A DNA stretch of 26,786 nt from positions 1-26,786 of IMG/VR virus record IMGVR_UViG_3300048813_000026; one strand, 5' to 3'. The DNA is from a virus. A program made the position numbers and the translations under genes. Each line of letters opens with the position of its first letter. Position 1 is the first letter of the stretch. The notes below the pieces were generated by a model. The model made no database searches. It was not told the origin of the DNA and was given only the letters and a program-made list of their open reading frames with translations. Of this stretch, positions 2,997 through 15,267 are shown piece by piece.

Positions 2997-3107
2997 TTAG
3001 TGTGATTCTTTGCAGTTTTTCTCGCCACAGTCGTAGCAATAGCCCTGCTTATATAATTGCTCAAGTCTATCTTGATCCTCTACTGGATCGGTTGGTTCAT
3101 CGTACAT
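2997..3107 (-). CDS. 36-residue acidic Cys-motif peptide
   Basis: ATG 3107 overlaps the previous stop (TAATG) and the frame ends at TAA 2997. The product MYDEPTDPVEDQDRLEQL is followed by YCYDCGEKNC, giving C24-x2-C27-x4-C32. Three cysteines and a nearby His (H36) could form a zinc knuckle. The tight coupling and the coherent peptide make it more than a chance frame, though its size limits certainty. Confidence 0.5.
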   Translation of the reverse strand: MYDEPTDPVEDQDRLEQLYKQGYCYDCGEKNCKESH

Positions 3108-3253
3108 TATGCGGCATCCTCTTCAGCAATAATCGCATCTAGTTCAGATTCGGGTATTAATTCCATTACCATGTCTAATAATTGCAGACGGTCATAATCG
3201 CGGTGGAGAATATCATAAACACGCGATAATTTTTGCTCTAATTGTTTGGTCAT
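3107..3253 (-). CDS. Hypothetical 48-residue helical protein
   Basis: The best start is ATG 3253, because AGGAAC lies about nine bases upstream within an ACTATAGGAA element. A longer frame up to 3316 has no SD and would run through the leader hairpin at 3291-3323. The product (MTKQLEQKLSRVYDILHRDY... ending AIIAEEDAA) looks wholly helical and acidic at its end. No family recognised. Confidence 0.55.
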   Translation of the reverse strand: MTKQLEQKLSRVYDILHRDYDRLQLLDMVMELIPESELDAIIAEEDAA

Positions 3254-3259
3254 AAGTGC

Positions 3260-3273
3260 GGTTCCTATAGTAG
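3260..3273 (-). promoter_or_regulatory. ACTATAGGAA leader element
   Basis: On the minus strand this reads CTACTATAGGAACC, seven bases upstream of ATG 3253. It contains the SD (AGGAA), but the match to the other leaders continues 5' of the SD (ACTAT). Confidence 0.4.
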
Positions 3274-3290
3274 TAAGTAAATCCATAGCT

Positions 3291-3323
3291 ATGCACTGGC
3301 AGGCAATGCTAGTCAATGCATAG
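3291..3323. promoter_or_regulatory. Leader stem-loop
   Basis: CTATGCA (3291-3297) and TGCATAG (3317-3323) are perfect 7-bp inverted arms around 19 bases. It sits in the 92-base gap between the small membrane peptide at 3346-3435 and ATG 3253, so it could influence leftward transcription or RNA stability. No U-tract is present. Confidence 0.3.
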
Positions 3324-3345
3324 GGTATTGGTGTGAAATGTTAAC

Positions 3346-3435
3346 TTATCTAATGCGGAGTAAAGTTAAGTTGTCATCTATTTGTAATAGTTTTAAGAAT
3401 ATCAAGAATAACAGAAATGCGATTAGTATTAGCAT
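3346..3435 (-). CDS. 29-residue membrane peptide
   Basis: A minus-strand frame from ATG 3435 to TAA 3346 gives MLILIAFLLFLIFLKLLQID and a short polar tail (DNLTLLRIR). It is a single strongly hydrophobic helix followed by a charged end, as in phage micro-membrane proteins. GGGAG lies about ten bases upstream, within the end of the preceding gene. The amphipathic layout and SD support it, but chance cannot be excluded at this length. Confidence 0.4.
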   Translation of the reverse strand: MLILIAFLLFLIFLKLLQIDDNLTLLRIR

Positions 3436-3439
3436 GTGA

Positions 3440-3676
3440 TTACGCTCCCAACGTAGCGACATAATCGCCATTAGGCAGGCAACCAAAGCCATATATTTCG
3501 AAACCGCCATCGACATACATTTCTTTGGCGAACCTAACAGCTAAGGCGCGAGCTTGTGTATCATAATCCATTGAGTGGTTACGTGCTTCAATCAACGTGC
3601 CAACTCTAGCGATTGCTTTTAATCTAATGCCGAAACTATTAGTTTCTGGTAGATATTTAATTAGTATTGCCTGCAT
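3440..3676 (-). CDS. Conserved phage protein, YLPETNSFGIRLKA type
   Basis: The start at ATG 3676 gives 78 residues beginning MQAILIKYLPETNSFGIRLK and ending GFGCLPNGDYVATLGA. The pairing of an N-terminal IxIxYLPxTNxxGxRxKA strand pattern with a C-terminal GxGxLPxGDYV is one I recognise from many small uncharacterised phage and prophage proteins. A longer upstream extension is possible in frame, but it would overlap the zinc-ribbon peptide at 3678-3794 and is rejected. The ATG lies one base after that gene's stop. Function unknown. Confidence 0.7.
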   Translation of the reverse strand: MQAILIKYLPETNSFGIRLKAIARVGTLIEARNHSMDYDTQARALAVRFAKEMYVDGGFEIYGFGCLPNGDYVATLGA

Positions 3677-3677
3677 G

Positions 3678-3794
3678 TTATATGCTCTCGCTATCAATAT
3701 TCTTTGGTTGACCGCTGTCACAGAACTCGCAACATGGTTGACCATTATGGTCGATAGCATCGAGATCACTATTACAGTAATTACATTTTTGCAT
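3678..3794 (-). CDS. 38-residue zinc-ribbon peptide
   Basis: The frame from ATG 3794 to TAA 3678 gives MQKCNYCNSDLDAIDHNGQP, then CCEFCDSGQP. C4-x2-C7 and C22-x2-C25 are spaced as in a classic four-Cys zinc ribbon. The SD is the AGGAAA of an AACTATAGGAAATA leader element at ideal distance, and the next gene starts one base after the stop. It probably binds zinc; partner and role are unknown. Confidence 0.6.
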   Translation of the reverse strand: MQKCNYCNSDLDAIDHNGQPCCEFCDSGQPKNIDSESI

Positions 3795-3797
3795 ATA

Positions 3798-3811
3798 TAT
3801 TTCCTATAGTT
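3798..3811 (-). promoter_or_regulatory. AACTATAGGAAATA leader element
   Basis: Identical over 14 bases to the elements at 4369-4382 and 4764-4777, three bases upstream of ATG 3794. It includes the SD, but identity extends on both sides of it. Confidence 0.5.
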
Positions 3812-3835
3812 TAGTTAAGTAAAGACTATTCGTAA

Positions 3836-3883
3836 TGCCAGCGAGTAACTGGCACTGGTATAACCCTATTGCAACTACGTTGC
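3836..3883. promoter_or_regulatory. Two small hairpins in an intergenic gap
   Basis: TGCCAG/CTGGCA (3836-3841 with 3849-3854) and GCAAC/GTTGC (3871-3875 with 3879-3883) form two perfect short stems. They lie in the 88-base gap just downstream of the leftward gene ending at 3883. They may slow polymerase or protect mRNA ends. Neither is followed by a U-run. Confidence 0.3.
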
Positions 3884-4155
3884 TAAAACGAGCGTACATA
3901 GTTTGGATAGTTACGTATTTTAGATGTTTTATTGGTGTGATGTTCACGGATTGTAAACGCTATACCATGGTCGGCTAATGTTTTGAGTAACAAGCTAGCG
4001 TCACAGTCTTCTTCAAGATAGGCATAGATACCGCGAGCATATGAATATGAACTAACTTTGTGAGCTATTTCTAGTTCAATCAGTTTGCGTCTAGGTATCT
4101 TGCACCATGCATGGCCAGGATCAGCGTAGAAATGCAATGTAATATGTTTTCGCAT
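3883..4155 (-). CDS. Conserved phage protein, HFYADPGHAW family
   Basis: The 90-residue product has an N-terminal HFYADPGHAWCKIPRRKL, a central SYSYARGIYAYLEEDCDASL and a near-C-terminal IREHHTNKTSKIRNYPNY. I recognise this three-block pattern as a widespread small protein of phages and mobile elements with no assigned function. The His/Asp/Glu-rich conserved blocks are striking, but no catalytic assignment is known to me. It starts one base after the stop of the neighbouring gene, with which this family often travels. Confidence 0.75.
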   Translation of the reverse strand: MRKHITLHFYADPGHAWCKIPRRKLIELEIAHKVSSYSYARGIYAYLEEDCDASLLLKTLADHGIAFTIREHHTNKTSKIRNYPNYVRSF

Positions 4156-4156
4156 A

Positions 4157-4363
4157 TTATGCCACCTTCGCTATCAAGCCATTACGCATTGTAACTTCAG
4201 CAAAGAATTCACGCTTATAGCCAGTGAGGTGCGGACGATTGCAACCACAAAACTTGCCATCAGGTTGATATTCATTGCCATGCATTGAAGTCTCGGTATA
4301 GCGCAATGGTTGCCCGATACATGCTTTGAGTTCTTTTTTAGATGGATAGTTTAATATCATCAT
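4157..4363 (-). CDS. Conserved phage protein, NYPSKKELKACIGQPLRY family
   Basis: The 68-residue product starts MMILNYPSKKELKACIGQPL and ends KREFFAEVTMRNGLIAKVA. The pattern K.LK..IGQPLRY.ETS...EY...G...G.NRP...GYKREFFAEVTM is a recognisable conserved small phage protein, usually beside the HFYADPGHAW-type gene as here. Its biochemical role is unknown. ATG 4363 or ATG 4360 could be used; the AGGAAA of the AACTATAGGAAATA leader lies at suitable distance from both. Confidence 0.75.
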   Translation of the reverse strand: MMILNYPSKKELKACIGQPLRYTETSMHGNEYQPDGKFCGCNRPHLTGYKREFFAEVTMRNGLIAKVA

Positions 4364-4368
4364 TGTTT

Positions 4369-4382
4369 TATTTCCTATAGTT
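4369..4382 (-). promoter_or_regulatory. AACTATAGGAAATA leader element
   Basis: Six bases upstream of ATG 4363, in an 88-base intergenic gap that also holds a GGATAA/TTATCC hairpin (4409-4430). The same 14-mer occurs at 3798 and 4764. Confidence 0.5.
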
Positions 4383-4451
4383 TATGGTTTAAGGTGTAAA
4401 GCTATTCTGGATAAACTCGAAAGCTTATCCATGAATGACTCTAGTGAGATG

Positions 4452-4757
4452 CTATTTGCCAAGTAGTGATGCTTTAAATTCTTCTTCTAGTTTATAGCGT
4501 CTGGATGACATCATTTCGGCGATAGCTTTTAGTTCAGCAATGTTTAGTTCTTCGATAAACTCCGCGACTATCTTGCCAAGATTCCATGTATTGCATGATG
4601 CATCACATAGCGCGTCAATACGGCCTTCGTAATATCCCGACCAATATTGGCTAGACTTATCTTCAAGCTTTAGATTTTCATAACGCTTAGTTACTTTATC
4701 TTTGCGAGCATTATCTAATAAAGTATTAATGCGACCAACGATTGTATTGTTTAGCAT
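4452..4757 (-). CDS. Hypothetical 101-residue protein, first of leftward block
   Basis: The product begins MLNNTIVGRINTLLDNARKD and is predominantly helical, with a central YWSGYYEGRIDALCDASCN and a charged C-terminal helix (EMMSSRRYKLEEEFKASLL). It has no membrane segment. ATG 4757 is the most upstream convincing leftward start, next to the long intergenic region that must contain the promoter for the block. The SD lies in an AACTATAGGAAATA element. No family recognised. Confidence 0.65.
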   Translation of the reverse strand: MLNNTIVGRINTLLDNARKDKVTKRYENLKLEDKSSQYWSGYYEGRIDALCDASCNTWNLGKIVAEFIEELNIAELKAIAEMMSSRRYKLEEEFKASLLGK

Positions 4758-4763
4758 GGTGTT

Positions 4764-4777
4764 TATTTCCTATAGTT
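4764..4777 (-). promoter_or_regulatory. AACTATAGGAAATA leader element
   Basis: Lies six bases upstream of ATG 4757. Here the bases further upstream, TAATCTTAACAA, give the closest resemblance among the copies to a T7-type promoter frame (TAAT...CTATAGG). That resemblance is partial. Confidence 0.5.
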
Positions 4778-5188
4778 GTTAAGATTATTCATTCTTACAC
4801 TCATAGTGATTGATTACAGTAGAGTGCAAGGTGAATCCTCTTTGTGACTTTCGTCACGCAGTCCGGAATAAACCTTAAGGAAATAGGGGGAGTTGCATTA
4901 AGCGCAGAGTTATACGTGTAAAGAAAGCCAACTCTTATAGTCATCCTGACTGGCGGCAAATAACATGCATTGTTAAAGATCATTGAAACCGGCAGTTGGT
5001 CGAGCATGTTTGCCTGTACTAGCACTCATAACAATGCCTTTAGCCTGACAAGTCTATAACTGGCAGTGAAGCGACTATTGATAGACTAGATAACAACGGC
5101 AGTACTAAACCAGATAGAGCTTGGTAGTTCCCTTTTGACCGACTAGCTATTGATAACCATAGAGTTAACAGAGAGAGCAACCTTGCGG

Positions 5189-5200: not shown

Positions 5201-5275
5201 ATCCATAACCGTATCAATCAACCTACAAGAGCGATTCTACGCGACCACGCGCCAATGTCAATACCTTAGTGCAAC

Positions 5276-6734: not shown

Positions 6735-8282
6735 ATGCAAGCTTTAACTGATTTACAAGACACTATTAGTCACGAAGACATACGGAATCTATTGGACTTC
6801 AAGTTATTTGCTGCGTCTTTTTTAAAGATTAGATCCAAGTCTGGTGCGATACAGCCATTAGTGTTTAACCAGGCACAGAACTATATTAATTATAAGTTAG
6901 ACGATCAGCTTAAGCGTACTGGTAAAGTACGGGCAGTTATATTAAAGGGTAGGCAAGCTGGTACATCAACACTGATACAAGCTAGATATTCACATAGAGT
7001 GCTCACGTCTAAAGGTATTAAGGCTTATATCCTGACGCATGAACAGGAAGCGACTAATAACTTATTTGAAATGGCTAAGCGGTTTATGGATAACTTGCCC
7101 AAGGGGTTAGCGCCAGTTGCTGAAGCTAGTACGTCAACCAAACTATATTATAAGTCATTAGACTCTGGTTACTCAGTGGGTACTGCTGGTAATAAGGGTG
7201 CAGGTAGATCCCAGACTATACAGTTATTCCACGGTAGTGAAGTTGGGTTCTGGCCGCATGCTAGTGAACATGCTAAAGGTGTCATGCAGGCTATTAGTAG
7301 GGATGACGGTACAGAAGTAATATTAGAGTCTACCGCTAATGGTATTGGTAATTACTTTTACCATATCTGGTTATCAGCAATGGCTGGTAAGTCAGAATTC
7401 CAGGCGATATTTGTGCCATGGTATTGGCAGCGTGAATATGTCAATACTGCAGATGGCTTTACACCAACAGCAGATGAAAACGAACTATTAGACCACTATG
7501 CTAGAGATGGCTTGTCCATTGCGCATCTGTCATGGCGCAGGTTAAAGATTGCAGAGTTTAGCAATGACTATGAAGTCGGGTTAGAGCAATTCAAGCAAGA
7601 ATATCCGATGACGGCTAGTGAAGCCTTCCGTAACCCGATAGACAATGCATTTATTAATTCCAAGCATGTCATGCGTGCTAGAAAAGCTATTGTGGAGTCA
7701 GACGCTAAACTAATCATCGGTGTCGATGTTGCTATCAGTGACAAAGACAAGACAGCTATCATTAGGCGCAAGGGTCGATTGACATACTCATTGGAGAAGT
7801 TCAACAACCATAACACCATGGAAATATGTGGTAAAATTAAGCGCATTATTTTGGAAGAAAAGCCTGAAAAGGTTTATATTGACTGTATAGGTATTGGTGC
7901 CGGCGTGGTCGACAGGTTACAGGAAATGGGATACACGCAGGTAGAAGGCGTCAATGTATCGCGATCGGCCAATGACAAAGAACATTACAAAAACCTCCGT
8001 GCAGAACTATGGGGTGAGCTACGTGACTGGTTAGGTCAGGAAATGGCAGTGCAGATACCAGACGACGATGAACTGCATGGGGAATTATGTTCTTTGGGAT
8101 ATAAGTTCAATAGCAATGGACAGTTGCAGATAGAATCCAAGGATGACCTTAAGGCAAGAGGAATGCCTTCGCCGGATGGTGCCGATGCGCTTTGTTTGAC
8201 CTTTTCTGGAGGTTTCTATCAAACTATGGGCAGTTTACCAGTAGATAGGTTATCACCGCAAGAGAAAGGTATGTTTCTTTGA
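6735..8282 (+). CDS. Terminase large subunit
   Basis: This is the ATP-driven packaging motor and DNA-cutting nuclease that docks on the portal. The 515-residue protein (P22 gp2 is 499) has the Walker A-type KGRQAGTST at 71-79 and a Walker B-like IQLFHGSEV with catalytic E169. It then has the coupling motif ILESTANG (197-203). The C-terminal RNase H-like nuclease shows IIGVDVAISD (D331), VYIDCIG (D383) and SPDGADA (D481, D484). All key residues are present, so the enzyme should be active. The SD TAGGGA lies five bases upstream of ATG 6735. An HNH gene directly downstream is a common arrangement in phages. Confidence 0.97.
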   Translation: MQALTDLQDTISHEDIRNLLDFKLFAASFLKIRSKSGAIQPLVFNQAQNYINYKLDDQLKRTGKVRAVILKGRQAGTSTLIQARYSHRVLTSKGIKAYILTHEQEATNNLFEMAKRFMDNLPKGLAPVAEASTSTKLYYKSLDSGYSVGTAGNKGAGRSQTIQLFHGSEVGFWPHASEHAKGVMQAISRDDGTEVILESTANGIGNYFYHIWLSAMAGKSEFQAIFVPWYWQREYVNTADGFTPTADENELLDHYARDGLSIAHLSWRRLKIAEFSNDYEVGLEQFKQEYPMTASEAFRNPIDNAFINSKHVMRARKAIVESDAKLIIGVDVAISDKDKTAIIRRKGRLTYSLEKFNNHNTMEICGKIKRIILEEKPEKVYIDCIGIGAGVVDRLQEMGYTQVEGVNVSRSANDKEHYKNLRAELWGELRDWLGQEMAVQIPDDDELHGELCSLGYKFNSNGQLQIESKDDLKARGMPSPDGADALCLTFSGGFYQTMGSLPVDRLSPQEKGMFL

Positions 8283-8326: not shown

Positions 8327-8935
8327 ATGCGTGAATATGTAATATATAAAGGGCATACATATTTTATTCAAACAAGTAATAGGTATTACCAGAATGGGAA
8401 TAAAGATGTGACAGAAAGATTATTACATCGTGCAATATGGTCAGATCATTATGGTGCAATTCCAGATGGTCATATTATTCATCATAAAGATCATGATTGG
8501 CGAAATAATAATATTGAAAATTTAGAGTTAATGGAATTACGAAAGCATCTTAGTGACCATGCAAAAGAATTGCATAGTAATTCAGAATATATAAAACAAA
8601 ATAAAGAATCATTATTAAAAGCACAAGAATCAGCAAAGATATGGCATGCATCTGAAGAAGGTTTAGCATGGCATAAGAAGCATGGCAAAGAATGCTGGAT
8701 AGATAGAAAATTACATAAAGTTAATTGTATTGTTTGTAAAAAAGAAGTTGAAACTCCATTTCCAACAAGAACAAAATACTGTTCCAAGTCTTGCAGACAA
8801 AAAATTGATTATCAAAAACATAAAACTGATAAACGTAATTGTTGTGTATGCAATAAAGAATTCTTAGCTAATAAATATACAAAAGTTATGGCGTGTTCAA
8901 GAAAATGCGGAAATAACATAAGATGGATGAATTAA
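8327..8935 (+). CDS. HNH endonuclease with C-terminal zinc fingers
   Basis: The 202-residue protein has an N-terminal HNH core with LLHRAIWSDHYG (32-43), IIHHKDHDWRNNNIENLEL (50-68) and a further His at 74. Two Cys4 fingers follow: C134-x2-C137 with C152-x3-C156, and C172-x2-C175 with C190-x3-C194. Such free-standing enzymes cut double-stranded DNA and spread as homing genes; some next to terminases also help packaging. Its A-rich codons differ from the flanking terminase and portal, which suggests later insertion between them. The SD TAGGAG precedes ATG 8327 by nine bases. Confidence 0.9.
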   Translation: MREYVIYKGHTYFIQTSNRYYQNGNKDVTERLLHRAIWSDHYGAIPDGHIIHHKDHDWRNNNIENLELMELRKHLSDHAKELHSNSEYIKQNKESLLKAQESAKIWHASEEGLAWHKKHGKECWIDRKLHKVNCIVCKKEVETPFPTRTKYCSKSCRQKIDYQKHKTDKRNCCVCNKEFLANKYTKVMACSRKCGNNIRWMN

Positions 8936-8947
8936 AAGGACAAGAAC

Positions 8948-11122
8948 ATGCCAAGGAAAGATTCGGAAGTAGTATCAAAGATCAGGGCAATGATCGACAA
9001 GTGGGATAAGTACTGGCGCATCAATCGTGAAGAATACTACCAATGGGTATTGTTCATCATGGGTGACCAATGGCGTGAAGATGAATCCAAACTATTTGAA
9101 CGATACAATAAGATACCGCTGACATTTAATAAGCTCGGCGCATTGGCTAACCACCTGATTGGCGACCAACGCCAGAACACACCAATGCTACAAATCCATC
9201 CTGATGACTTTGTTGATCCTGAAACGGCTGATGTACGTGCAGCACTTATCAAGAATATTACGTTTAACTCCCAGGCAGAAATCGCATACCAAACTGCATT
9301 TCAATCCGCCATTATTGGTGGGTTCGGTGCATTCCGTGTTGGCATTGACTATGAAGATGAATCGTCATTCCATAAGAAATTAGGTATCTATGAAATCAAA
9401 GATCCGACACGATGTTATTGGGATATGGCAGCAGAGTCACCCTGCAAGACTGACGGGATGTATTGTGGTTACAAAGTTAGAATGTCACGCAAGAAATTCA
9501 AATCCATCTATGGCAAAAAGATTGAACAAGATATTGGTGCATCAGCTGTTACTGAGGACAGTTCATTTGTTTATGCAGATGATGATTCAATTACCATCGT
9601 GTATCACTTTGAACGCGAAGGTAGGCCATCCAAAATACATAAGCTGTCTAATGGTGAAACCGTTAGCACGCAAGAACTAAAAACACTAAGTAAATTCGAA
9701 CTAGATGGTGTAAACGAAAAGTTATATCTCTACAAAGGCGAACCAGTATCCGTCGTCGATACACGTGACGTCACTATCTATAAAATCACGCAGAAAGAAC
9801 TAGCCGGTGATTATATTCTGGATGAAACAGACTTCCCGACTGAGCAACTGCCCATACCATATGTTGATCAAAATTCATATTGGGATAAACGTGGACAGCA
9901 AGTTACTAGATCGTTTTTCCAGGATGTAAAAGATTCCCAACGCTACCTAAACTATCTCGCTACGCAATCCGCTTATATTATGAAAGTATCGCGTTACGAC
10001 CAGTTCATTGCTAGCAGAAAGAACGTCGCAGCACCCGATACACAACAAGTCTGGCGTGATCCATCTGTGCAACAAGGTGCATTGATTTATGACGAATCGC
10101 CGAATGGGAATAAGCCAGAACAGTTACGGCCACCAGAACTATCGCAATCGTTGATGACGCAATATGACAGATGTTTAATGGATATACAAACTGGCACGGG
10201 TATGTACAATACCCAACTTGGGGAGAAAGGAAATGAAGTCTCCGGTAGAGCGATTGATGCGCGTACGAAACGTGGCAGTTATAATACTTATGTACCTTTT
10301 AATAGCCTTAATCGCGCTATTGCCTGTGCCGGACAGATCATTAACGAAGCCATCCCAAAAGTATATGACGCGGAACGCCTGATGGTTTTGCAAATGCCAG
10401 ATCGTGAAAATGTACGTGTCACGATTAACAAGCAGGAAGACGAATATGGAATGCAGGTTACTAATGATATGACCACAGGCAGATACCATATACGGCTACT
10501 ACCAGGACCATCCTACCAGGGTCAGAAAGCAGAAGCCCTGCAATCCATGGAAATGATGCTTGCTGCTGACAAATCTGGTCAAGTATTCCCATTGATTGCC
10601 GACCTCTATGCTGAGAATCTGGAATTACCAAACAATTTGGTCATACGTAATAGACTACGTACTATTGTACCACCAGAAGTCATCCAAGCGGGGAAAACCG
10701 GTGAGCCATTACCACCAAAACCACCGCAACCAAACCCAGAAATGGAACTCATTGCACTGAAAAAACAAGAATTAGAGTGGAAAAAGCAGCAAGCAATGCA
10801 AGATTCCCAGAAAAAAACGCAAGAATTGCAGATAAAACAGCAAGAAATACAGCGAAAAGCGATGGAAACCCATCAAGATATGACAATGGCATGGGAAAAA
10901 CTGGAAGGCGAAAAACAAGAATCTGCGGCCAAACTCCAAGAGACGATCCTGCGCTACGATGCCGAAATCAAGCACATGCAGTCTGCAGAAGATATGAACC
11001 ATGCTAATAACCTGGTGAAACTATTGACACATGGGTCACAAGTTGGCCATGAACGTGAAATGCAACATAAAGAACTGAATCATCCATCCAATAATAAACC
11101 AACACCACCAAAGAGAGATTAA
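8948..11122 (+). CDS. Portal protein, P22 gp1-like
   Basis: The portal forms the ring at one capsid vertex through which DNA enters and leaves. At 724 residues it is nearly the same length as P22 gp1 (725). It shows the family's N-terminal NREEYYQWVLFIMGDQW, the NKIPLTFNKLGALANHLIGD segment and central SFFQDVKDSQRYLNYLATQS. A Gly/Asn segment (NTQLGEKGNEVSGRAIDART) follows. The last 130 residues are a Gln/Lys/Glu-rich helical region fitting the long C-terminal barrel of P22 portals. The SD AAGGA precedes ATG 8948. It follows the terminase and precedes the scaffold, as in P22. Confidence 0.95.
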   Translation: MPRKDSEVVSKIRAMIDKWDKYWRINREEYYQWVLFIMGDQWREDESKLFERYNKIPLTFNKLGALANHLIGDQRQNTPMLQIHPDDFVDPETADVRAALIKNITFNSQAEIAYQTAFQSAIIGGFGAFRVGIDYEDESSFHKKLGIYEIKDPTRCYWDMAAESPCKTDGMYCGYKVRMSRKKFKSIYGKKIEQDIGASAVTEDSSFVYADDDSITIVYHFEREGRPSKIHKLSNGETVSTQELKTLSKFELDGVNEKLYLYKGEPVSVVDTRDVTIYKITQKELAGDYILDETDFPTEQLPIPYVDQNSYWDKRGQQVTRSFFQDVKDSQRYLNYLATQSAYIMKVSRYDQFIASRKNVAAPDTQQVWRDPSVQQGALIYDESPNGNKPEQLRPPELSQSLMTQYDRCLMDIQTGTGMYNTQLGEKGNEVSGRAIDARTKRGSYNTYVPFNSLNRAIACAGQIINEAIPKVYDAERLMVLQMPDRENVRVTINKQEDEYGMQVTNDMTTGRYHIRLLPGPSYQGQKAEALQSMEMMLAADKSGQVFPLIADLYAENLELPNNLVIRNRLRTIVPPEVIQAGKTGEPLPPKPPQPNPEMELIALKKQELEWKKQQAMQDSQKKTQELQIKQQEIQRKAMETHQDMTMAWEKLEGEKQESAAKLQETILRYDAEIKHMQSAEDMNHANNLVKLLTHGSQVGHEREMQHKELNHPSNNKPTPPKRD

Positions 11123-13216: not shown

Positions 13217-13789
13217 TTAATTATTTTCTTTTAAATAGTTCATAGCTTTTTGCATTAATAAAATGTCATCTTTGAAATGTCCTAGTCCGGTATTACAGTG
13301 ATGACATAGTAATCCTCGAATTTTACCAGTAATATGGCAATGATCTACCGCAAGGCGTTTAACTGGTGTTTTATCAGGATGAGAAGATTTCATTGTTTCT
13401 GGTTTATCACATATAGCACATAATCCATTTTGCTTTTGATGAATTTTCTCATATTCACTTATTAGTAACCGAATGCCACTTCCCTTTTTGCCTAAATGAA
13501 TAAAATTTCTAGTTTGAATCCTATCTGGATTATTTTTAGCAAATTTATTACTTCTTCTTTTTTTACATTCTATGCATTGGTAATAATCCTGTTTTTCATA
13601 ATAATAAGTTTGATGCTCTTTCAATTGTCCATGTAGATGACAAGTCATAATAATATCTTCGGATAATTTTGGCAGATCAAAAGATTTGTGCCTTCCCCAT
13701 CTAACACGATGCATTGTGCATAAAGTAGATCGTTGTTTAATGTCTCTTGGGTTGGTGCAATGTGGCGCTCTACAAGTATAAATTTCCAC
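13217..13789 (-). CDS. Endonuclease VII-type HNH nuclease, antisense insert
   Basis: The 190-residue product has the recombination endonuclease VII signature: C124-x2-C127, then LAVDHCHITGKIRGLLC (146-162), C165, N166 and a helical end. The N-terminal half carries further Cys/His groups (C6, C11, C24; C50, H53; C72-x2-C75), likely extra zinc modules. The start is GTG 13789, preceded by TATAGGAATC. It points against the late operon, between the small head genes and the coat gene, and its codons are AT-rich. A homing-type insertion is the simplest explanation. It would cut DNA, but its target is unknown. Confidence 0.88.
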   Translation of the reverse strand: MEIYTCRAPHCTNPRDIKQRSTLCTMHRVRWGRHKSFDLPKLSEDIIMTCHLHGQLKEHQTYYYEKQDYYQCIECKKRRSNKFAKNNPDRIQTRNFIHLGKKGSGIRLLISEYEKIHQKQNGLCAICDKPETMKSSHPDKTPVKRLAVDHCHITGKIRGLLCHHCNTGLGHFKDDILLMQKAMNYLKENN

Positions 13790-13958: not shown

Positions 13959-15218
13959 ATGCCCAATATGTTTGAGACGACACAATATATCCTGGACGAA
14001 ACGTTTATTAGGTTTGTCAACTATCTTAATTATGCAAAAGTCGCGAACAGAAACCTTGAAGGTGACTTCAAAGGCTTGAAATATGCAACTGGCCAGACCA
14101 TTGACTATCGTTTAGAAGAACGATACCTCGGTGGCGAAGGTGCAACTGCAGTGTCAGAAGCACGCGTACAGGTTATCCGTCCACTGACCATCAGCAAGCA
14201 GTTCAACACGATGGTAGAGTTCTCTGGTTTCGAACTGACCTTTGATCGCGCCCGTGATCAACCATACTTGGATATGATGTTAAATCCACGTGCTAAGCGT
14301 TTAGCTAACTTGGTTGAACAGTTCATTGCAACGACCAATTTGCAGACTGCTATTTACCAGTACACTGGCACACCCGGTGTACCCATCGATTTCAATACCG
14401 TTTTGGTCACTGATGCTTACATGACCCAATTAGGCATTCCAGAAGACGGTAATCGTTACTTCTCCTGTTCGCCAATGGTATCTGCTGGCTTGTCTAATGA
14501 TCTCTATACAGTATTTAACCAGACGGTTAACCGTGGTGCATTGATGGATGGTTTCATTGGTCACTTGTCCGGGTTTGACTTCTTTAAGACAAACTTCTTG
14601 CAGAGACAAATTGCTGGTGTACCAGATGCTACCGTAGCAGGTACACCGCCAACTGGATTCTTGGCTGCTGGTCAGGTAGTTGGTCCGGTAACTGGTGGAA
14701 ATGTGTTAGTGGTGAGCGGTTTAAATGCTAGTAACACTAATGGTGTTGCATTGTTTAATGTCGGTGACATTATCACGATTGATGCTGCAGCTAATGTGTT
14801 TATGATTAATCCATTAAATTATGAACCTTTACAAGCTACAGCACAGTTTGTTGTGACGGCGCAGGTATTATCAGCGACTGGTGTAACACAATATACTGTT
14901 CCAGTTAGCCCAACTATTGTGACTTCTGGTGCTAGACAGAATATTTCTAATGTTATTCCCAATGGCGCACAGTTATATCGTGCTAATTCACATAACGTGT
15001 CCATTGCATTCCATAACCAAACGATTGTCTTCGCTGCTCCGCCAATCAAAGAGCTGAAAGGTGGTGTAGAGGCAGTAACTTCCTATAGTGATCTGTATAA
15101 ACTTGCTATGACTTATACACTGGGTGCTGATATTCGTAATTACGTTCAGTTAGATCGTATTGACGTTATTTGCGGTGTTGCGATTAATCCAGAGTTCGGC
15201 GTATTGGTAATGTCATAA
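13959..15218 (+). CDS. Major coat protein, P22 gp5-like
   Basis: At 419 residues this is close to P22 gp5 (430) and occupies the same position after the scaffold. Recognisable stretches are the N-terminal helix (ILDETFIRFVNYLNYAKVAN), YRLEERYLGGEGATA, a long helix (MLNPRAKRLANLVEQFIATT) and the C-terminal NYVQLDRIDVICGVAINPEF. The Gly/Ala/Val-rich 225-300 section fits an inserted beta domain of the kind found in P22-type coats. It assembles around the scaffold into the icosahedral shell. A strong terminator follows immediately, as expected for a very highly expressed gene. Confidence 0.92.
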   Translation: MPNMFETTQYILDETFIRFVNYLNYAKVANRNLEGDFKGLKYATGQTIDYRLEERYLGGEGATAVSEARVQVIRPLTISKQFNTMVEFSGFELTFDRARDQPYLDMMLNPRAKRLANLVEQFIATTNLQTAIYQYTGTPGVPIDFNTVLVTDAYMTQLGIPEDGNRYFSCSPMVSAGLSNDLYTVFNQTVNRGALMDGFIGHLSGFDFFKTNFLQRQIAGVPDATVAGTPPTGFLAAGQVVGPVTGGNVLVVSGLNASNTNGVALFNVGDIITIDAAANVFMINPLNYEPLQATAQFVVTAQVLSATGVTQYTVPVSPTIVTSGARQNISNVIPNGAQLYRANSHNVSIAFHNQTIVFAAPPIKELKGGVEAVTSYSDLYKLAMTYTLGADIRNYVQLDRIDVICGVAINPEFGVLVMS

Positions 15219-15225
15219 ACAATGT

Positions 15226-15267
15226 TAGGGGATGCATATTGCTACGGTATGTATCCCCTATTTTTTT
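15226..15267 (+). terminator. Strong intrinsic terminator after coat gene
   Basis: TAGGGGATGCATA (15226-15238) pairs with TATGTATCCCCTA (15248-15260), 13 bp with one G-T pair and a 9-base loop. Seven T follow (15261-15267). The next gene's SD (TATAGGA) begins directly after the T-run, so connector genes depend on read-through or on another promoter. Confidence 0.9.

Follow-up and report, generated by a model that had tools for sequence, protein, structure and literature searches.

Predicted hairpins and a repeated ribosome site precede gapped genes in a leftward phage operon

Four small genes of a leftward operon start behind copies of one leader in the DNA analysed here (the 'window', a 26,786-base virus record from a phage with P22-like head genes). 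We lean slightly towards reading these leaders as copies of an RNA-level intercistronic cassette, which would combine RNase III-type processing or insulation at each gap with a standard strong ribosome-binding site. The whole cassette is found again in a second phage, IMGVR_UViG_3300049617_000022 (hereafter G003), whose large terminase subunit (TerL) is 81% identical to that of the window.

The window and its leftward genes

Head genes of the window include the terminase (6735-8282), the portal (8948-11122) and the major capsid gene (13959-15218). As relatives of this phage are 35-46 kb long, the window is incomplete, with perhaps a quarter or so of the genome missing. The genes that carry the repeated leader all lie on the minus strand. 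They are the first gene of the leftward array (4452..4757; 101 aa, 36% identity to its G003 counterpart, also first in the array), a gene for a 68-aa conserved phage protein (4157..4363; phrog_37117), an ORF of 38 aa with four cysteines, zinc-ribbon-like as judged from its sequence (3678..3794), and an ORF of 48 aa that is 61% identical to a G003 ORF (3107..3253).

Other features of the window may be mentioned. HNH and endonuclease VII-like genes lie between terminase and portal (8327-8935, plus strand) and just ahead of the capsid gene (13217-13789, minus strand), a placement that resembles homing endonuclease insertions. On the minus strand, a 250-aa protein (1435-2187), 50% identical to a protein of the record G006 (L297), contains a long Ala/Tyr/Asp-rich low-complexity repeat (AYAAAYAAA...). 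Similar stretches (TACAACTAACYAAATTRGT) at 1403-1440 and 2187-2240, also on the minus strand, stand ahead of two adjacent gene starts and are perhaps a duplicated gene end.

A repeat at the ribosome site of gapped genes

The initial annotation had reported a shared leader motif just upstream of four leftward starts, and exact minus-strand copies are indeed present: AACTATAGGAAATA at 3798..3811, 4369..4382 and 4764..4777, ahead of the ATGs at 3794, 4363 and 4757, and CTACTATAGGAACC at 3260..3273, 8 nt ahead of the ATG at 3253. The repeat thus measures 14 bp in three copies and 10 bp in all four. Its common part, ACTATAGGAA, is located 6-9 nt (counted from AGGAA) 5' of the ATG in 4/4 leftward genes having a gap of about 90 nt. 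The association with gaps, also claimed at the outset, was borne out: the four motif genes come after gaps of ~88-92 nt or a long leader, and the motif is absent from leftward genes whose start overlaps the preceding gene. No further site for AACTATAGGAAATA was found in the window, allowing 0-2 mismatches of the 14-mer.

The repeat does not reduce to its Shine-Dalgarno (SD) core. Among the 45 AGGAA sites of the window (both strands), five have ACTAT directly ahead, and when flanks were shuffled with every leader's SD core kept, four copies of a 10-mer arose in 0/300 trials. Only ACTATAGGAA(ATA) is fixed across copies; within the window ACTAT and AAATA are strictly conserved, which exceeds the needs of RNase III or of SD pairing. 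The claim of conservation beyond AGGAA therefore stands for ACTAT. It holds in part for the looser element further upstream, TTAAC, which is present at a distance from ACTATAGG that varies from 1 to 5 nt and is degenerate at 3253. Aligning the leaders showed the motif to be the 3' end of a longer unit made of a hairpin and a ribosome-binding site, described below.

A fifth exact ACTATAGGAA, at 15080-15089 on the minus strand, is antisense within the major capsid gene. It also occurs there in relatives that lack the leaders, and the coded residues SYSDL account for it. Antisense pairing of the leaders with this copy of the capsid mRNA was rejected for these reasons.

The shorter string TATAGGA precedes the genes at 8327, 13789 and 15280, as had been noted, and additionally the gene at 2979; at 6735 the reading is TATAGGG. 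Overall, TATAGG stands ahead of 7 of the 44 called starts in the window, compared to 7/665 in ten relatives (Fisher p about 5e-6). The window phage does lean to TATAGG, of which the TAT adds no anti-SD pairing. Leaders of the ten related genomes contain ordinary TAAGG or AAAGG sites, and ACTATAGGAA in none. A scan of IMG/VR for AACTATAGGAAATA was also made: among the matches listed, 28 out of 120 precede a start with an open frame, as against about 11-13% of baseline positions, so that the string appears usable as a ribosome site in general. Within the stretches fetched among these matches, no other contig had two copies. We also observed a strong terminator-like hairpin with a T-run immediately 3' of the capsid gene (15226-15267, plus strand), which reaches into the TATAGGA site of the 15280 gene.

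The leaders of a sister phage

G003 has a homologous leftward array, in which the window proteins at 4452, 3107, 2725, 2200, 1048 and 815 all have homologues, and their order is unchanged. Its operon leader is homologous to that of the window (alignment score 136, compared to at most 86 for shuffles). Array-protein alignments against IMG/VR revealed no record with the array beyond G003, and conservation consequently rests on two genomes. All six G003 leftward genes with at least 64 nt of gap ahead of them have the cassette (L291 starts 19301, 18679, 18292, 17836, 17367 and 16524). Their common leader consists of a hairpin, (A)GATTAYCTTTA, an A/T-rich stretch with AACTTAA or AACTAAA, AGGAAA or AGGAGA, and the ATG. 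Cores in the homologous leaders are AACTTAAGG, AAACTTTAAAGG and ACTGAAAGG. One leader reads AACTTAAGGAAATA where the window has AACTATAGGAAATA, TA replacing AT, which indicates that 'CTATAGG' is a variant of the ordinary TAAGGA ribosome site. Together with the fixed distance to the AUG, this canonical form argues for the motif being a ribosome site, and the extended Shine-Dalgarno sequence that the initial annotation had listed among its options is supported as far as that reading goes.

Another of those options was a phage RNA-polymerase promoter. ACTATAGG is the initiation core of T7-type promoters (as in the T7 phi10 promoter), and a phage single-subunit RNA polymerase would start at its GG. 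The TAAT expected upstream is present at the T7 distance, in the copy at 4764 only. T7-type promoters share a conserved block of about 23 bp with fixed spacing; here the upstream block is not fixed, and G003 lacks the core, with AACTTAAGG or AACTTAAGGAAATA at this place. Moreover, a start at GG would put the SD at the extreme 5' end of the transcript. A search for the polymerase itself (PF00940) gave no match, either in the window, an incomplete genome, or among 18 related records (35-46 kb), while the T7 control was recovered at 1e-109. We find promoters of this type scarcely credible.

The motif might instead be the site of a regulator encoded by phage or host, which would bind RNA and repress or activate the translation of all the motif genes. 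The conservation that reaches past the SD core on both sides, and the presence of one copy per gapped gene in a single orientation, agree with such a site, and the start-associated sequences (SAS) of cluster K mycobacteriophages, likewise conserved past SD pairing, were considered possible binding sites (PMC3203893). However, the core differs in the homologous G003 leaders, ribosome binding alone explains the strict SD-to-AUG spacing, and no candidate regulator was identified; we judge this possibility unlikely. Recognition by CsrA was rejected, as the motif has no A two bases ahead of GGA.

Hairpins in the gaps

Every motif gap also holds a predicted RNA hairpin 5' of the motif, which the initial annotation had not noticed. 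Its usual form has two storeys, with an upper stem of variable sequence above a lower stem that ends in CUUUA; the A/U-rich linker and the ribosome site follow. This arrangement was found in 4/4 gaps of the window and 6/6 of G003; in the window the order is hairpin, GAATAG(T)CTTTA, TTAAC, AACTATAGGAAATA, ATG. Folding places CTTTA in the 3' arm of the lower stem, opposite TAAAG, TAGAG or AGGGT, and puts an upper stem of 8-10 bp atop a small internal loop. The form of the upper stem is constant and its sequence differs among copies.

All four window hairpins are on the minus strand. That of copy 3 (4397..4443) has the lower stem TAGAGTCATTC/GAATAGCTTTA and the upper stem TGGATAAGCT-TTCG-AGTTTATCCA, with a folding z of -5.54. 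In copy 4 (4781..4842; z -3.59) the arms are AAGAGGATTCA/TGAATAATCTT below and CTTGCACTC/GAGTGTAAG above, and internal mismatches make it fail a strict two-storey descriptor. The two weakest hairpins are those ahead of 3794 and 3253. The former, in copy 2 (3822..3867; z -1.61), pairs AGGGTTAT with ATAGTCTT and AGTGCCAGT with GCTGGCATT. The latter, in copy 1 (3274..3348; z -1.98), has a 10-bp upper stem (3289-3298 / 3314-3323) over a poor lower stem (3274-3278 / 3344-3348) and also fails the strict descriptor.

Considering the ten cassettes of both phages together, the mean folding z was -3.84 (-1.6 to -5.9), while 19 control starts taken from the same arrays averaged -0.73, and the predicted openness of the ribosome site was 0.69, compared to 0.49. 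The strict descriptor was matched by 7/10 cassettes and by 3.5% of shuffled copies. An imperfect helix of about 20 bp with an internal loop in an intercistronic gap, the layout of RNase III-type substrates, was thus found in seven cassettes strictly, in a further two as folded structures with additional bulges, and weakly in copy 1. The ten cassettes were set in register by hand to count lower-stem pairs: pairs 3, 4, 5, 8, 9 and 10 are retained in at least nine of them, and 82% of cells are paired, compared to 77% with the arms re-dealt (23/2000 shuffles were equally good). Covariation counts add little for this stem, since its 3' arm hardly varies. MAFFT and RNAalifold gave no consensus for the G003 cassettes, whose stretches were clipped at the 5' arm and whose upper stems are unalignable by sequence, and Rfam, at the gathering score, had no family match within the window. 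Intrinsic terminators were rejected: the hairpins have no U-run, and none is predicted in the gaps. Homologues of the 4157 gene have leaders that differ from the window's, with a hairpin ahead of the SD in several.

The two arrays differ in cassette placement: in G003 the cassette is missing before the homologue of the 3107 gene and present before that of the 2725 gene. Cassettes preceding different genes would fit a strong leader copied by recombination or short homology for module exchange, in which case the unit would be only an ordinary ribosome site and the hairpins incidental. The short identity among window copies also speaks for this. However, hairpin structure is retained while sequence is not, and upstream of the motif most pairs of copies have chance-level similarity, which speaks against the whole unit having been copied recently. 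We hold simple copying to be rather unlikely.

Transcription of the operon

A sigma70-like promoter, TTGACA-16-TAGAAT (11/12), is predicted at 5234..5261 on the minus strand, where it scores above shuffles; the leftward transcript probably begins there. Within the gaps, sigma70 promoters were rejected, since scores were no higher than those of shuffled sequence. The leader of the predicted transcript contains a boxA-like site, TCTTTAACA (4971..4979, minus strand), whose counterpart in G003 (L291 19437-19447, minus strand), GCTCTTTAACA, is a perfect match to GYTCTTTAANA; the window's site nearly matches this consensus. This suggests Nus-dependent antitermination of the operon.

Could the gaps themselves be Nus-factor sites, with CUUUA resembling boxA and the hairpin resembling boxB, acting in antitermination or in a suhB-like control of translation? 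The boxA sites at the same place of both operon leaders speak for this, and the boxA and SD of suhB are 6 nt apart (PMC5725501). Nevertheless, GYTCTTTAANA is matched by 0/10 gap elements, and the CUUUA of the gaps belongs to the lower stem. Such a role of the gaps seems very improbable.

A proposed function of the cassette

We return to the processing or insulation cassette, the reading that we prefer. The leftward operon of small genes would make one polycistronic transcript, probably from the sigma70-like promoter at 5261-5234. On it, each cassette would comprise an imperfect hairpin, usually two-storey, an unpaired, A/U-rich linker containing (C)UUUA...UUAAC, the ribosome site AACUAUAGGAAAUA and the AUG. 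The hairpins may be cut by RNase III of the host or a nuclease like it, or may do no more than insulate the coding segments. Cutting or insulation at each gap is proposed because layout and size match the early RNase III sites of T7. Each downstream gene would thereby start on an exposed, standardised ribosome site, whose strength, like the cleavage and the transcript start, we infer.

Repeated leaders in other phages

A survey for repeated leaders covered the fetched contigs of 10 kb or more. The record IMGVR_UViG_3300032251_000005 (G019; L416/L417, also L238), in which the window gene 3883-4155 has a homologue, contains 16 copies of GAGGTTGAGA in 40.5 kb, compared to 0 for the reversed control. 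Fifteen of the 16 are immediately 5' of an ATG, with 2-3 nt separating GAGGTTGAG and the ATG, and strong double hairpins stand ahead of several. This start-associated repeat is much stronger than the window's. Other phage contigs with repeated leaders (L269/L272, L225 and L075) have five copies of AAGAGAGGAT, four of TTGGAGATTA and four of TAAGGAGCAA; several of the AAGAGAGGAT leaders show a TATAAT-like sequence about 20 nt upstream.

The cassette could even represent an undescribed family of regulatory RNAs that arose independently in several lineages of phages, G019 included. Its repeated two-part hairpin, with conserved 3' arm and linker, would let a dedicated phage or host factor switch on the small early genes as a set, at translation. 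We regard this as decidedly doubtful.

Start-associated repeats have been a puzzle in actinobacteriophages since 2011. Similar repeats occur in unrelated metagenomic phages, and the variable-sequence hairpins point to RNA structure. It can now be tested whether phages standardise the translation of small early genes by a leader that can be used repeatedly, and whether this arrangement exists for the sake of RNA processing. With its 16 copies, G019 would be the best system for such work.

Comparison with known systems

The early RNase III sites of T7 (R1.1, R1.3) are like the cassettes in having an imperfect hairpin in early polycistronic gaps, followed by an A/U-rich leader and a ribosome site. 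R1.1, located between T7 early genes, is the standard RNase III substrate and has an internal loop (PMC6121014). The T7 gene 1.3 leader, folded here, showed the cassette layout of hairpin, TTTAACCAATAGGAGATAAACATT and ATG. The systems differ in that the linker and the ribosome-site sequence are fixed and common to the window and G003, and that cleavage is here only proposed; moreover, the window phage is P22-like in its head genes, with no T7-type polymerase in the window. The T7 gene 10 leader also combines a hairpin, an A/U-rich stretch with TTTAACTTTA, an SD, ATAT and ATG; unlike the cassettes, it is a single leader behind a T7 promoter and not an intercistronic repeat. With boxA/nut sites, the arrays share a CUUUA(A) segment near a hairpin and the boxA-like site of the operon leader, whereas the gap elements fail the boxA consensus.

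In cluster K mycobacteriophages, the SAS is a 13 bp sequence, GGGATAGGAGCCC. There are 11-19 copies, each at the ribosome site of a gene whose gap exceeds 50 bp, and about half of them have upstream inverted repeats (ESAS) (PMC3203893). An analogue is known from Microbacterium phages (PMC7302621). The ESAS repeats are conserved in sequence with little hairpin support, and carry putative SigA promoters in Adephagia (PMC11373665). Such a sequence-conserved inverted repeat with a promoter differs from the window gaps, where stems vary and no promoter exceeds shuffles. The consensus is also different: only ATAGGA or AGGA is common to the window motif and GGGATAGGAGCCC (cluster K) or GGGAAAGGACCCC (cluster EF). 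The window phage belongs to another phage group, with 4 copies compared to 10-19. The window motif is nonetheless an asymmetric repeat of about 13 bp that extends beyond SD pairing, as the SAS is. In both systems, genes with large gaps have a conserved, repeated element at the position of the ribosome site, with an imperfect inverted repeat upstream, in the SAS case in a subset. We conclude that sequence, copy number and the conservation of the repeats set the cassette outside SAS/ESAS, which it resembles in position and repetition.
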